A DNA stretch of 64,000 bases from a bacterium (GTDB lineage Bacteria; SZUA-79; Acidulodesulfobacterales; Acidulodesulfobacteraceae): positions 1 to 64,000 of the forward strand of contig JAJYDX010000004.1 in the NCBI GenBank assembly GCA_021777135.1, in the 5' to 3' direction. Positions 6,987 to 43,550 of this stretch are shown here, in pieces. The notes beneath the pieces were generated by a model that saw nothing but the letters and a program-made list of their open reading frames with translations, ran no database searches and was not told where the DNA came from. The position numbers were made by a program, and so were the translations under genes. Position 1 is the stretch's first letter. The number at the start of each line of letters is the position of its first letter.

Positions 6987-7730
6987 ATGCGGATAATACC
7001 CCAAATCGAAACCCCTGTTAGTGAAAATTACATAAATTTTGAAGAAAATTTAATTAAACTCATAGATGAAATAAAAAAAACAGAATTAAGTAATATAGAT
7101 ACCGGTCAAAACCTGCCGCAAATAATTATTGAACAAAATTTTGGCGTAAACGGCTTGCTTTTATGCAAAGATTTAAAAGACAAGTATGGTAATGTAAATA
7201 TAGCTTACGCTTTTAATATGAGAGATAAAAACCGTATATCAATTTTGTCAGATTTAATTACTCTTAAGCAGATAGGTATTAAAGATATAATAGCTTCAGA
7301 AGGCTTGCATCCGTTAAAAACTGTTTTTAATGCAGCCAAGCCTGTATATGACTTAGATATTTTAGGCTTAGGTTTAATATTAAAAAGAGGTTTTATGAAT
7401 TACCTCGAACATATCCCAGGTAAAGATACGCAGGATTTTTTTAACCTTGGTGCTGTTGTTGCTTTATCAAGTGCGGTTGACGGCTTGAAGATTAAGAAAC
7501 TTATTAATATCGGAGCAGATAGGTTTATTATAAATTATACCGGTAAAAATTTAGATGAAGATATTATTAATTATATAAAATCGGAAAAAAAAGAAGTTAT
7601 CTTGCTCGTAAAAGAATCTTATATAGGCAATTCATTGGAAAACTTTATTAGAGAAAACGTGAACTTAAACTTAGACGGTATCATAATTAAAATTTTAGAC
7701 GAAAAGACAAATGTTTTTACGCGACAATAA
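6987..7730 (+). CDS. Short, divergent methylenetetrahydrofolate reductase-like protein
   Basis: The 247-residue protein resembles the MetF TIM barrel: an N-terminal QIETP strand with Glu8, a central AFNMRDKNRISILSDL block (residues 75-90, like the CRDRNR segment of MetF) and KPVYDLDILGLG at 118-129. It is some 40 residues shorter than typical MetF. Where MetF normally reads LTGD or LRGD it has ASEG (103-106), so an expected acidic residue near FAD seems displaced. No clear Shine-Dalgarno precedes ATG 6987. Position between metV and iorA supports a redox role with folate; catalytic competence is uncertain. Confidence 0.65.
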   Translation: MRIIPQIETPVSENYINFEENLIKLIDEIKKTELSNIDTGQNLPQIIIEQNFGVNGLLLCKDLKDKYGNVNIAYAFNMRDKNRISILSDLITLKQIGIKDIIASEGLHPLKTVFNAAKPVYDLDILGLGLILKRGFMNYLEHIPGKDTQDFFNLGAVVALSSAVDGLKIKKLINIGADRFIINYTGKNLDEDIINYIKSEKKEVILLVKESYIGNSLENFIRENVNLNLDGIIIKILDEKTNVFTRQ

Positions 7731-20868: not shown

Positions 20869-22632
20869 ATGAAGGAAATTAAAATAGAAGTTTGGGGCAT
20901 GACATGCGAACACTGTGTTGCCAGGGTCAATAAATTTTTAAAATCTGTAAACGGCATCGTGGAGATAAATACCAGTTTAAAGGAAAATATGTCATATATA
21001 GTCGCAGAAGACGGAACGGATGTTGAAGACATAAAATCGGCAATAGAAGAAGCTGGATATAAGACTGGGAAATATGAAATCGGTAAAAACGTGACCGGTC
21101 ACGATGAACTTTTAGGCGCAAATACCTTATCGTCAAAATTTGACAAGGGGCAGGCATTTATAGAACCGCGCAGCGGACTTTCTGACGGTAACGTAGCCGC
21201 GAACCGGAACGAAAGCCGCGATTACGATATTATTATTATCGGTGGTGGTTCCGCCGCCTTTTCGGCGGCAATATATGCAGCCGAAAAAAACAAAAAAGTT
21301 TGCGTCATAGAAAACTGGGTCATAGGCGGAACCTGTCTTAACAGAGGATGTGTTCCGTCCAAACATTTTCTTGAAGCAGGCAGGATTTTTTATGAACCTG
21401 TTAACAACAGGTATAAAGGTATAAATATAGAACGGAAATCAATCGACATGAAGTCGCTTGTCGAGGAAAAAGATGTACTTTTAACAACTTTAAGACAGGT
21501 AAAATATTACAATGTTCTTGAAGGTTATAATCAAATAAAATTTATTAAAGGAACAGGCAGGTTCATATCAAAAAACGCTGTTGAAATTCTTCCTTCCGAA
21601 ACTGGCGGTCAATCTTATGTTATTTCATCCGAAAAATTTATTATTGCAACCGGTTCCAAAAATAGGATACTTGAAATTCCTGGTCTTGGAGATACAGGCT
21701 ATATGACAAATAACGAACTCTTAGATATTAGCTATATTCCGGAAACGCTTTTAATACAAGGAACGAGAGCGTTGGCACTTGAGTTCGCGCAGATGTTTGC
21801 CAGATTTGGTTCAAAGGTTATTATAATAGGCAGGGCAGACAGGGTTGCGTTGAACGAAGAGCCGGAAATTTCAATAGCGCTGGAAGATATATTAGCAAGA
21901 GAAGGCATCGAAATCTTGCTGGATTCTGAAATAAAGAGATTATATAAGAAAGATGGTGTAAAATATGCTGAAATAGAAACGAAAGGCGTTATTAAGATTA
22001 TTGAATTCAGCGAGTTTTTAATGGCTGCTGGCATCGTAGGGAATTCTACCGAACTTAATCTTGAAGAGGCAGGTGTTGAAGTGGATAGAAACGGTTTTAT
22101 TGTAGTAAATGATGAGTTAAAAACCACGGCGGATAACATTTATGCCGCAGGAGATGTAATAGGTAGAGAGTTTTTTGTAACCGTCGCAGCTTATGAAGGA
22201 AAAATAGCGGCAAGCAATATCTTGGAAGGTACACATATAAAAACCGATTATTCAGCCGTCGCACATACTACTTTTACCGATCCGGAATTTTCTTCCGTCG
22301 GATTAACTGAGGAACAGGTAGTAAAAGCCGGCATAGAATATGAAAAAGTAGTATTTCCCGTTAGCTATATACCAAAGGCGCAGGCAATATTTAAAACGGA
22401 AGGTCTTATAAAGATGCTAGCCGAAAAAAATACCAGAAGAGTTCTTGGAATACACATTCTTGCCCATAACTCATCGGAAACTATACAACAGGCTTCGGTA
22501 TACCTGCAAAATAAATATACAACGGAGGACCTAGGTAAAGAAATAGGCGTTTACCCCACTATGGCTGAAGGACTAAAACTATGCGCTCAAGGTTTTAGCA
22601 AGGATATTAATAAACTAAGCTGTTGCGCTTAA
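20869..22632 (+). CDS. merA: Mercuric reductase with N-terminal heavy-metal-binding domain
   Basis: The 587-residue protein starts with an HMA domain (GMTCEHC at 10-16), a linker of about 50 residues, then a class-I pyridine nucleotide-disulfide oxidoreductase core: FAD motif GGGSAA (125-130), redox pair C156/C161 in GGTCLNRGCVPSK, and AAGDVIG. It ends in vicinal cysteines C585-C586 (SCCA), the tail that delivers Hg(II) in MerA. It reduces Hg(II) to Hg(0) with NADPH. CGGAG lies upstream. No merR, merT or merP is adjacent, so regulation and uptake must lie elsewhere, or it acts on Hg already inside the cell. Confidence 0.9.
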   Translation: MKEIKIEVWGMTCEHCVARVNKFLKSVNGIVEINTSLKENMSYIVAEDGTDVEDIKSAIEEAGYKTGKYEIGKNVTGHDELLGANTLSSKFDKGQAFIEPRSGLSDGNVAANRNESRDYDIIIIGGGSAAFSAAIYAAEKNKKVCVIENWVIGGTCLNRGCVPSKHFLEAGRIFYEPVNNRYKGINIERKSIDMKSLVEEKDVLLTTLRQVKYYNVLEGYNQIKFIKGTGRFISKNAVEILPSETGGQSYVISSEKFIIATGSKNRILEIPGLGDTGYMTNNELLDISYIPETLLIQGTRALALEFAQMFARFGSKVIIIGRADRVALNEEPEISIALEDILAREGIEILLDSEIKRLYKKDGVKYAEIETKGVIKIIEFSEFLMAAGIVGNSTELNLEEAGVEVDRNGFIVVNDELKTTADNIYAAGDVIGREFFVTVAAYEGKIAASNILEGTHIKTDYSAVAHTTFTDPEFSSVGLTEEQVVKAGIEYEKVVFPVSYIPKAQAIFKTEGLIKMLAEKNTRRVLGIHILAHNSSETIQQASVYLQNKYTTEDLGKEIGVYPTMAEGLKLCAQGFSKDINKLSCCA

Positions 22633-22653: not shown

Positions 22654-23373
22654 TTAAATTTGAGGTCTTTTTCCGAAGATAACCGTTCCAACCCTTACAA
22701 TAGTTGCGCCTTCTTCTATTGCGACTTCAAAATCGCCAGAAGTTCCCATAGATAAAGTATGAAGCTCGTTTTTATAAATATTCTTACGGTTTATTTCTTT
22801 CAGTAACTCTTTAAGCTCTTTGAAGTATTTTCGGTTTTCTTCCGGTTCGTTTACGAGAGGAGGCATTGTCATTAGTCCAAGTAATTGCAAAGAATTATAC
22901 CGCCGTAGTTCTTTAATTATATTTGAAAGCCCTTCACTTTCTACGCCGTTTTTAGTGCTTTCTCCTGCAAGATTAACCTCGATAAGTATATTAGAAACAA
23001 TATTTTTAACGCTCGATTGTTTGTCTATTGTGGCGGCGAGGTCTATATCGTCTACGGAATGAATCAAATCGATTTTGCCAGTGATGTACTTAACCTTATT
23101 TTTTTGAAGATGGCCGATTAAATGCCAAGAAATTTTATTATGACTTTTTATAGTCAATTCTTCGTATTTAGGTAAAAATTCCTGGACGTAGTTTTCACCG
23201 AATACCGTTATGCCGGAATTAAATACTTCTTCAATCTCCACGGGCGTTCTGGTTTTAGAGGCGGCTAAAATAGTTATGTCGGAGAAATTTCTTCCGCTTT
23301 TGTCCGCGGCATTATTAATTTTTATTTTAATATCGTCGATGATTTTTTTGGTATTATGTTCGAAGTCTTTCGT
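22654..23373 (-). CDS. YggS/PROSC-type PLP homeostasis protein with apparent ACG start
   Basis: The protein is an alanine-racemase-fold PLP-binding protein that buffers pyridoxal phosphate. The first standard start, GTG at 23241, would cut off the conserved N-terminal third, including ILAASKT with the PLP lysine (codon at 23254-23256). The reading frame continues upstream through SGRNFSDITILAASKT and reaches a stop at 23374-23376 with no ATG, GTG or TTG. The first codon after that stop is ACG at 23371-23373, exactly eight bases after AAGGGG (23382-23387), giving 239 residues with the lysine at position 40, near the family norm. Downstream motifs include GENYVQE, WHLIGHLQKNK and LSMGTSGDFEVAIEEG. 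Either ACG initiates or an ATG has mutated or been misread. Confidence 0.82.
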   Translation of the reverse strand, partial: TKDFEHNTKKIIDDIKIKINNAADKSGRNFSDITILAASKTRTPVEIEEVFNSGITVFGENYVQEFLPKYEELTIKSHNKISWHLIGHLQKNKVKYITGKIDLIHSVDDIDLAATIDKQSSVKNIVSNILIEVNLAGESTKNGVESEGLSNIIKELRRYNSLQLLGLMTMPPLVNEPEENRKYFKELKELLKEINRKNIYKNELHTLSMGTSGDFEVAIEEGATIVRVGTVIFGKRPQI

Positions 23374-23499
23374 TTATTCTGCCCCTTATTTATTTAATAT
23401 GTTAATGAATATTACGACAAAAAGAGATTATTCTGCAGTTAATTATAGCATATAAATAAAAAGGGTATATCCTAAAATAACCATAATTTAGTTTTTTAT

Positions 23500-23539
23500 T
23501 TGCATAAAATTTTTTAAACAGTTAGAATATGCCACTATG
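23500..23539 (+). promoter_or_regulatory. Promoter for the MFS gene, probably leaderless
   Basis: TTGCAT at 23500-23505, a 17-base spacer and TAGAAT at 23523-23528 form a good sigma-70 promoter. ATG 23537 lies only nine bases after the -10, so the transcript should begin at or one or two bases before it. No Shine-Dalgarno is present between promoter and start. Confidence 0.5.
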
Positions 23540-25958: not shown

Positions 25959-27235
25959 TAGGAGGAACTAAATGTCCAAAGAGAAATTTGACAGATCTAA
26001 GCCACATGTCAACATAGGAACCATAGGTCACGTTGACCACGGCAAAACAACATTAACAGCTGCTATCACCAAGGTTCTTGCAAGAAAAGGACAGGCAACT
26101 TTCAAGTCATATGATCAGATAGACAATGCCCCGGAAGAAAGAGAAAGAGGCATAACGATTGCGACTTCCCATGTAGAGTATCAAACAGATAAAAGACACT
26201 ATGCTCACGTAGATTGCCCGGGTCATGCCGATTACGTAAAAAACATGATAACAGGAGCGGCCCAGATGGACGGAGCAATACTCGTTGTTTCCGCTGCAGA
26301 CGGTCCTATGCCTCAAACCCGCGAGCATATACTATTGGCGCGTCAGGTAGGAGTTCCCTATATAGTAGTATTTTTAAACAAGGTCGATATGGTTGACGAC
26401 CCGGAGCTTTTGGAACTTGTCGAACTCGAAGTAAGGGAGCTTTTAACATCCTATAATTTCCCGGGAGACACTGTTCCGGTAATAAAGGGCTCTGCTCTTA
26501 AAGCTCTTGAAACCGAAGGCGAAAATGAATGGACTCAAAAAATAGTCGATCTTATGAACGCGGTAGATGAATATATACCGGTTCCAAAAAGAGACGTGGA
26601 CAAACCGTTTCTTATGCCAGTAGAAGACGTCTTTTCTATATCCGGCAGAGGAACAGTCGCCACGGGCAGAGTCGAAAGAGGAATAGTAAAAGTCGGCGAA
26701 GAAGTAGAACTCGTAGGAATACTTCCAACATCCAAGACCGTCGTAACAGGCGTAGAAATGTTCAGGAAGCTTCTTGACGAAGGTCAGGCCGGAGACAACA
26801 TAGGCGTTCTTTTAAGAGGCAAGAAAAGAGAAGAAATAGAAAGAGGTATGGTTCTAGCTAAACCAGGTTCCATAACCCCTCATAAAAAGTTTAAAGTCGA
26901 AGCCTATATACTTACCAAAGAAGAAGGCGGACGTCACACTCCGTTCTTCAACGGCTATCGTCCCCAGTTTTATTTTAGGACTACCGACGTTACCGGAGTC
27001 TGCACACTGCCTGAAGGAATCGAAATGGTAATGCCAGGCGATAACGTTGCGATGACCGTAGAACTTATAACTCCAATAGCCGCAGAAAAAGAATTAAGGT
27101 TTGCTATAAGAGAAGGCGGTCATACTGTTGGAGCAGGCGTTATAACAGAGGTCATAGAGTAATTTAAATATAGAAAACATAGAAGGAGGACCGGTTTAAT
27201 CCTGTCCTCCAATAAAGCAAAGGGGTAATAGAAAA
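25959..27235 (+). repeat. Direct repeat copy 1 containing tuf and its 3' flank
   Basis: Identical to 42274-43550 by reading across both: it starts at the ribosome-binding site TAGGAGG, spans the whole tuf gene and ends 73 bases after its stop. The shared 3' flank holds a hairpin (GGAGGAC 27185-27191 with GTCCTCC 27204-27210) and an AAGGGG. Flanking bases differ on both sides. This pattern is expected from gene conversion between duplicate tuf genes. Confidence 0.9.
25972..27162 (+). CDS. tuf: Elongation factor Tu, copy 1
   Basis: The 396-residue GTPase has G1 GHVDHGKT (residues about 16-23), switch [10 protein letters not shown]3 DCPGHADY and G4 NKVDMVD, followed by the two beta-barrel domains that hold aminoacyl-tRNA. 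It delivers aminoacyl-tRNA to the ribosomal A site. AGGAGG precedes the ATG with optimal spacing. The protein is identical to that of copy 2 in the str operon. Here it sits downstream of four tRNAs and before rpmG, as tufB does in E. coli. Confidence 0.98.
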
Positions 27236-42273: not shown

Positions 42274-43550
42274 TAGGAGGAACTAAATGTCCAAAGAGAA
42301 ATTTGACAGATCTAAGCCACATGTCAACATAGGAACCATAGGTCACGTTGACCACGGCAAAACAACATTAACAGCTGCTATCACCAAGGTTCTTGCAAGA
42401 AAAGGACAGGCAACTTTCAAGTCATATGATCAGATAGACAATGCCCCGGAAGAAAGAGAAAGAGGCATAACGATTGCGACTTCCCATGTAGAGTATCAAA
42501 CAGATAAAAGACACTATGCTCACGTAGATTGCCCGGGTCATGCCGATTACGTAAAAAACATGATAACAGGAGCGGCCCAGATGGACGGAGCAATACTCGT
42601 TGTTTCCGCTGCAGACGGTCCTATGCCTCAAACCCGCGAGCATATACTATTGGCGCGTCAGGTAGGAGTTCCCTATATAGTAGTATTTTTAAACAAGGTC
42701 GATATGGTTGACGACCCGGAGCTTTTGGAACTTGTCGAACTCGAAGTAAGGGAGCTTTTAACATCCTATAATTTCCCGGGAGACACTGTTCCGGTAATAA
42801 AGGGCTCTGCTCTTAAAGCTCTTGAAACCGAAGGCGAAAATGAATGGACTCAAAAAATAGTCGATCTTATGAACGCGGTAGATGAATATATACCGGTTCC
42901 AAAAAGAGACGTGGACAAACCGTTTCTTATGCCAGTAGAAGACGTCTTTTCTATATCCGGCAGAGGAACAGTCGCCACGGGCAGAGTCGAAAGAGGAATA
43001 GTAAAAGTCGGCGAAGAAGTAGAACTCGTAGGAATACTTCCAACATCCAAGACCGTCGTAACAGGCGTAGAAATGTTCAGGAAGCTTCTTGACGAAGGTC
43101 AGGCCGGAGACAACATAGGCGTTCTTTTAAGAGGCAAGAAAAGAGAAGAAATAGAAAGAGGTATGGTTCTAGCTAAACCAGGTTCCATAACCCCTCATAA
43201 AAAGTTTAAAGTCGAAGCCTATATACTTACCAAAGAAGAAGGCGGACGTCACACTCCGTTCTTCAACGGCTATCGTCCCCAGTTTTATTTTAGGACTACC
43301 GACGTTACCGGAGTCTGCACACTGCCTGAAGGAATCGAAATGGTAATGCCAGGCGATAACGTTGCGATGACCGTAGAACTTATAACTCCAATAGCCGCAG
43401 AAAAAGAATTAAGGTTTGCTATAAGAGAAGGCGGTCATACTGTTGGAGCAGGCGTTATAACAGAGGTCATAGAGTAATTTAAATATAGAAAACATAGAAG
43501 GAGGACCGGTTTAATCCTGTCCTCCAATAAAGCAAAGGGGTAATAGAAAA
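42274..43550 (+). repeat. Direct repeat copy 2 containing tuf and its 3' flank
   Basis: Same 1277-bp unit as 25959-27235, in the same orientation and 16,315 bp further on. Identity starts at the ribosome-binding site and ends six bases before the rpsJ start, including the hairpin and AAGGGG of the 3' flank. See copy 1. Confidence 0.9.
42287..43477 (+). CDS. tuf: Elongation factor Tu, copy 2
   Basis: The 396-residue product is identical to copy 1, and the nucleotide sequence also appears identical throughout, including synonymous positions, which points to recent or continuing gene conversion. This is the tufA-equivalent position at the end of the str operon. rpsJ follows 78 bp after the stop, so the str and S10 gene groups are probably transcribed together. 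Confidence 0.98.

Follow-up and report, generated by a model that had tools for sequence, protein, structure and literature searches.

The yggS gene and its upstream region

The window, a 64-kb stretch from a genome assembled in 92 contigs (G000), carries a yggS gene on its minus strand with no canonical start codon ahead of its cofactor lysine. The features of the locus are as follows.

22654..23373 (-), coding sequence of yggS, encoding a PLP homeostasis protein; 239 aa from ACG, with a match to TIGR00044 and PDB relatives
23371..23373 (-), ACG, putative initiation codon; first codon after an in-frame TAA, kept in the sister species G015 and aligned with the ATG of relatives
23374..23376 (-), in-frame TAA immediately 5' of the ACG, read from the sequence
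23254..23256 (-), PLP-binding lysine of ILAASKT; codon 40 of the translation, aligned to the family lysine
23239..23241 (-), GTG, first canonical start, judged not real; codon 45, its product being without strand 1 and the PLP lysine
23382..23387 (-), Shine-Dalgarno-like AAGGGG, 8 nt before the ACG; anti-SD duplex -7.6 kcal/mol
23442..23450 (-), extended -10 element TGCTATAAT, read from the sequence, without a good -35

The full open reading frame scores 192.5 bits against TIGR00044 (cut-off 106.25), matching profile positions 4-229 of 229 from residue 8 onward, and its PDB relatives include 1w8g (E. coli YggS, residues 5-236 versus 5-229), 6kzw and others. Judged by these matches it is a full-length YggS/PLPHP (TIGR00044, COG0325), for which PLP binding and a role in B6 homeostasis are predicted from family membership. 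It is the sole gene of its type in the genome; the other Ala_racemase_N match, on contig C54, is a 420 aa open frame that is unmatched in the YggS searches.

The frame opens ACG AAA GAC TTC and closes with the TAA at 22654, 239 codons in all. No ATG, GTG or TTG occurs in frame from the TAA at 23376-23374 down to the GTG at 23241, which is five codons past the PLP lysine; the family lysine in strand 1 is present provided that translation starts upstream of that GTG. Re-reading of the minus strand thus agrees with the preliminary description, which had reported an intact N-terminal third and lysine with no canonical start before the GTG, and its warning that automatic annotation would drop the lysine is correct for this genome, the GTG-started product entering TIGR00044 at profile position 42. 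Initiation at the ACG would give the N-terminal length usual for the family, as had also been proposed, with the lysine at residue 40 as against 36 in E. coli (K36, which we take to be the family counterpart of codon 40) and with 1w8g aligned from residue 5. The gap between AAGGGG (23387-23382) and the ACG is exactly 8 nt, as first described.

Within 90 nt upstream of the ACG, the only canonical starts in any frame are ATG 23451 and TTG 23420, each followed by a stop after two codons, and the ATG lies 5' of where the transcript is predicted to start. No ORF in any frame of this 90-nt region runs into yggS, and stops lie between yggS and the same-frame upstream sequence. From the extended -10 element we place the likely transcript start near 23435, which would give a leader of about 60 nt, and the arrangement suggests a monocistronic yggS transcript pointing away from the MFS gene at 23537. 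The leader folds with about the energy expected from its composition (z 0.17), with no sign of an RNA switch. None of the other near-cognate codons in this yggS has an SD match.

The start codon in the sister species and across the genus

The nearest relative, G015, has a YggS protein 67% identical to that of the window, and its gene likewise has no canonical N-terminal start. The two sequences read GGGGGCATAGCAA-ACG-GAA-GAT-TTC in G015 and GGGGCAGAATAA-ACG-AAA-GAC-TTC in G000, with the start codon at the identical position; in G015 the ACG is 8 nt past GGGGG, the same gap as in the window, and the anti-SD duplex is -8.4 kcal/mol. Other near-cognates in G015 have SDs that are weaker or badly spaced. 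The first canonical start in G015 is a TTG, from which the lysine would be retained and about 36 residues lost. At fourfold sites the two genes agree in just 22 of 56 cases, so that synonymous positions are saturated. For codons 2-44, between the ACG and the GTG, dN is 0.22 and dS 1.35, values by which this segment is under purifying selection, and dN/dS for the whole gene is about 0.1-0.17. The ACG match is between two genomes, and at 39% neutral-site identity three matching bases have a chance of about 6%. The neighbourhoods are alike, with maf adjoining yggS in G015 and tuf on the other side in both G015 and the window.

Several other features were observed in these neighbourhoods. In the window a mercuric-reductase-like gene (20869-22632), whose product has what looks by eye like a metal-binding domain at its N-terminus, is located between maf and yggS, and two EF-Tu genes (25972-27162 and 42287-43477) encode identical protein sequences. 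G015 has two tiny uORFs 5' of yggS (locus L004), ATG TTT TGC ATT ATT TAA and ATG GGG GCA TAG, of which the latter is in frame with yggS and ends 3 nt before the ACG.

The comparison took in 16 genomes from the genus and 30 from the family. When codons are counted up to the lysine, the ACG falls on the same codon as the ATG in G003, G023, G025 and G026, making a change from ATG to ACG likely. Within the genus, G001, G003, G004, G005 and G013 have an ATG at the yggS N-terminus. The proposed comparison with relatives therefore has two outcomes: an ATG, which was to mark an error or strain mutation, is absent from the nearest species, which has ACG, and present at the homologous codon of more distant relatives. 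Probably ATG had already become ACG when G000 and G015 diverged, and the ACG has been kept from then on; it is heritable rather than a sequencing error, and on these comparisons yggS very probably starts at it.

Six more loci in the genus (in G006, G007 twice, G009, G012 and G014) have no ATG, GTG or TTG from the upstream stop to the lysine. Their start candidates are ATA (placing the lysine at 37) and ATT or ATC (lysine at 35), behind strong SDs, and these loci probably use AUA or AUU. In their clade, N-terminal dN is well below dS. Mapped on the yggS gene tree the trait requires at least three changes, by which the canonical start is lost several independent times within one genus. Outside the genus all evaluable loci are canonical, comprising 12 in the family and about 77 of 80 in other phyla; in the 80-locus set two loci had no readable motif and two were flagged, L057 having an ATG near the family position and L051 (wrong ORF) being uncounted. 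We also considered the invariant ATA of the sister clade as proof of an ATA start, but it is not decisive, other conserved Ile codons being likewise invariant ATA.

At four of the non-canonical loci (L013, L014, L015 and L018) the ATA shares bases with the stop codon of a HAMP-like gene lying upstream, in the form ATAA or ATAG, whereas in species with ATG (L005, L006, L008, L010 and L017) yggS overlaps the stop of that gene as ATGA. With the HAMP assignment judged by eye, this suggests that the coupling geometry was retained while the start codon changed.

Anti-SD duplexes at the eight non-canonical yggS loci range from -7.5 to -8.4 kcal/mol, and those at the canonical loci of the genus from 0 to -5.8. 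The stronger SDs fit compensation for a weak codon, yet about 27% of 445 genes in G000 have an SD equal to or stronger than that of yggS, and we reject the idea that its strong SD is unusual in itself.

Three further observations concern yggS in these genomes. At L009 (G010) the only canonical start, a GTG, overlaps the SD (AAGGTG), and the spacing is better for an ATT that places the lysine at 35; a non-canonical start may be in use here too. No yggS match was found in G008 (87% complete) or G011 (91% complete), through either loss or an assembly gap. In genus g2 of the family (G016, G017, G019 and G021; L107, L108 and L110-L112) the yggS ORFs are 268-318 aa long and match in two pieces, which suggests inserted sequence near residues 72-79 as numbered in the window protein.

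Genome-wide survey and translation background

The coding signal ahead of the first canonical start, back to the preceding stop, was scored by codon usage for 68 genes of the window and 377 from 400 kb of contig C54 (about 445 in total). The highest score is that of yggS, at 17.8, the 99th percentile of the 377-gene set being 9.2. Two further genes score above 12 (15.8 and 13.7), and both seem spurious: one is the shadow of an ORF on the opposite strand, and the second a stretch before a clear signal peptide. Among these genes the missing start is thus specific to yggS rather than general, and we reject a genome-wide relaxed start code. We note that a perhaps LpxK-like gene, G000:C54:219777-220733 (-), has coding signal for 22 codons 5' of the first canonical start, a TTG, and is possibly a second non-canonical start or a damaged gene.

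The gene for IF3, infC, has no well-placed ATG, GTG or TTG in any of the 15 genomes of the genus where it was found, and instead has ATA behind GGAG:

G000:C60, about 7302-7511 (L123, L196; genus set L113-L127), infC, apparent ATA start

In all 15 genomes infC therefore appears to start with AUA, and a classical IF3-type weak start appears to operate in the genus; annotation probably mis-sets IF3 starts throughout it. We read 44 distinct tRNAs in G000 (of 48 hits; a few may be missing), of which two have a CAU anticodon, one of them initiator-like (CGCGGGG...). The single tRNA with a CGU anticodon is an ordinary tRNA-Thr, and a special initiator tRNA decoding ACG was not present among the 44.

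Probable initiation at ACG and competing explanations

We consider it likely that yggS is functional and is translated from the ACG by genuine near-cognate initiation, helped by a strong SD. The ACG start is favoured because codon and gap are kept in G015, the N-terminal codons are selected, and there is no other plausible start. In the mechanism that we propose, the strong, well-spaced SD would position the 30S subunit over the ACG, the ordinary initiator tRNA (anticodon CAU) would mispair at its middle base, and initiation with formyl-methionine would follow at a low rate. IF3 disfavours near-cognate start codons, and would tune initiation at this one. ACG decoding, low yield and IF3 sensitivity are what we infer for this gene, and from the behaviour of such codons elsewhere it is plausible that the ACG keeps PLP-carrier levels low. 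Of the near-cognates in E. coli reporters, ACG ranks with the weaker ones, at 0.1-1.5% of ATG in one test (PMC6925171); unless initiation is more permissive in this lineage, very little YggS may be made. E. coli YggS has lately been reported to bind RNA (PMC11602438); autoregulation is therefore conceivable, but nothing in the present sequences points to it.

The preliminary description had offered, as an alternative, an ATG changed to ACG by mutation or assembly error. A single base would restore ATG and the assembly is fragmented, but the ACG and its spacing are common to the separate species genome G015 and the N-terminal codons show selection; an error or a mutation private to one strain is effectively excluded. 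That the gene is a decaying pseudogene with a lost start is equally hard to credit: the canonical start is absent, but frame and motifs are intact, dN/dS is low, and a state common to two species is old. Translation might instead begin elsewhere, at an internal near-cognate, from an upstream ORF by frameshift or readthrough, or after C-to-U editing of ACG to AUG, and in-frame ATC and ATT codons do lie downstream (ATC 23343 would put the lysine at residue 30), and G015 has the in-frame ATG GGG GCA TAG just upstream. We regard this group of explanations as improbable, since the internal codons of G000 have no SD and no upstream ORF enters the gene in any frame, same-frame stops intervening; a frameshift from an upstream ORF is ruled out, none being possible in the 90 nt upstream. 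Editing would leave the GGA-ATA relatives unexplained, and we know of no bacterial machinery for such a conversion of ACG to AUG.

Two other readings are compatible with initiation at ACG and concern why the ACG persists. The weak start may have been selected, holding yggS at a low dose with translation answering to IF3 level or growth state. Within one genus the trait recurs in three or more lineages, against 0 of about 89 outside loci; neither species has gone back from ACG to ATG although synonymous sites are saturated; and infC has AUA in the same genomes. All this speaks for selection, as do measured precedents in Staphylococcus (ccpN, cvfC1; PMC13009471) and Streptomyces (sigR; PMC5472188) and the impaired growth of a cyanobacterium overexpressing the family member PipY (PMC10060972). 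However, the five genomes of the genus with an N-terminal ATG indicate that a weak start is not required, and relaxed selection on expression level would look alike; we hold selection to be possible, with some reservation. It is quite possible, although we would not presume it, that trace YggS suffices and start strength is near-neutral, so that ATG decays by drift to near-cognates while the protein stays constrained. The codons differ by lineage (ACG, AUA or AUU), yggS has been lost convergently in Blochmannia (PMC3017870), and G008 and G011 have no match, albeit absences that fit assembly incompleteness; the retention of strong SDs at 8 of 8 non-canonical loci argues against drift. As far as these sequences go, recurrence and non-reversion favour selection, whereas tolerance is favoured by the diversity of codons and by the several members of the genus that have ATG.

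Few bacterial genes start with anything other than AUG, GUG or UUG, and the examples on record (infC, sigR, ccpN) are mostly dose regulators. The infC gene, with an AUU, AUC or AUA start, resembles yggS in having a strong SD before a near-cognate in an otherwise ordinary gene, and its AUA occurs in this genus too; it is autoregulated by its own product, whereas yggS encodes a PLP protein and has ACG. Chloroplast ndhD and psbL have an ACG that is edited to AUG. In such chloroplast starts (PMC9845219) the DNA has ACG at a homologous ATG position, as in yggS, although that is organelle C-to-U editing, of which there is no sign at yggS. Staphylococcus ccpN (AUA) and cvfC1 (AUU) share with yggS a conserved non-canonical start and strong SD in a non-translation gene, and near-cognates with strong SDs there give about 10-30% of AUG in reporters (PMC13009471); those starts were mapped experimentally, have third-position mismatches and belong to other families, whereas the ACG of yggS is a second-position mismatch known from sequence. 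The GUC start of Streptomyces sigR is, like that of yggS, rare, missed by annotation, conserved, and none of AUG, GUG or UUG (PMC5472188). Repression of the sigR start by IF3 was shown experimentally (PMC5472188), whereas for yggS the link to IF3 is putative and comes from the AUA of infC in the same genomes.

Non-canonical starts are thus already a known kind, and what differs here is a rare codon and a new gene. To our knowledge ACG is almost never used as a start by bacteria, and our literature search found no report of a native bacterial ACG start, albeit without proving absence. YggS is a universal B6-homeostasis gene product whose mechanism is still debated. We suggest tentatively, as something we think rather unlikely in its full form, that yggS is naturally initiation-controlled in this uncultured genus, at least three lineages having swapped AUG for ACG, AUA or AUU with a strong SD and so tied PLP-carrier supply to IF3 and growth state. 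If true, bacteria would here have a native ACG start that is conserved. Annotation pipelines will remove the cofactor lysine or the N-terminus from such genes across much of the genus, and a second-position mismatch conserved between species offers a testable case for control of YggS dose.
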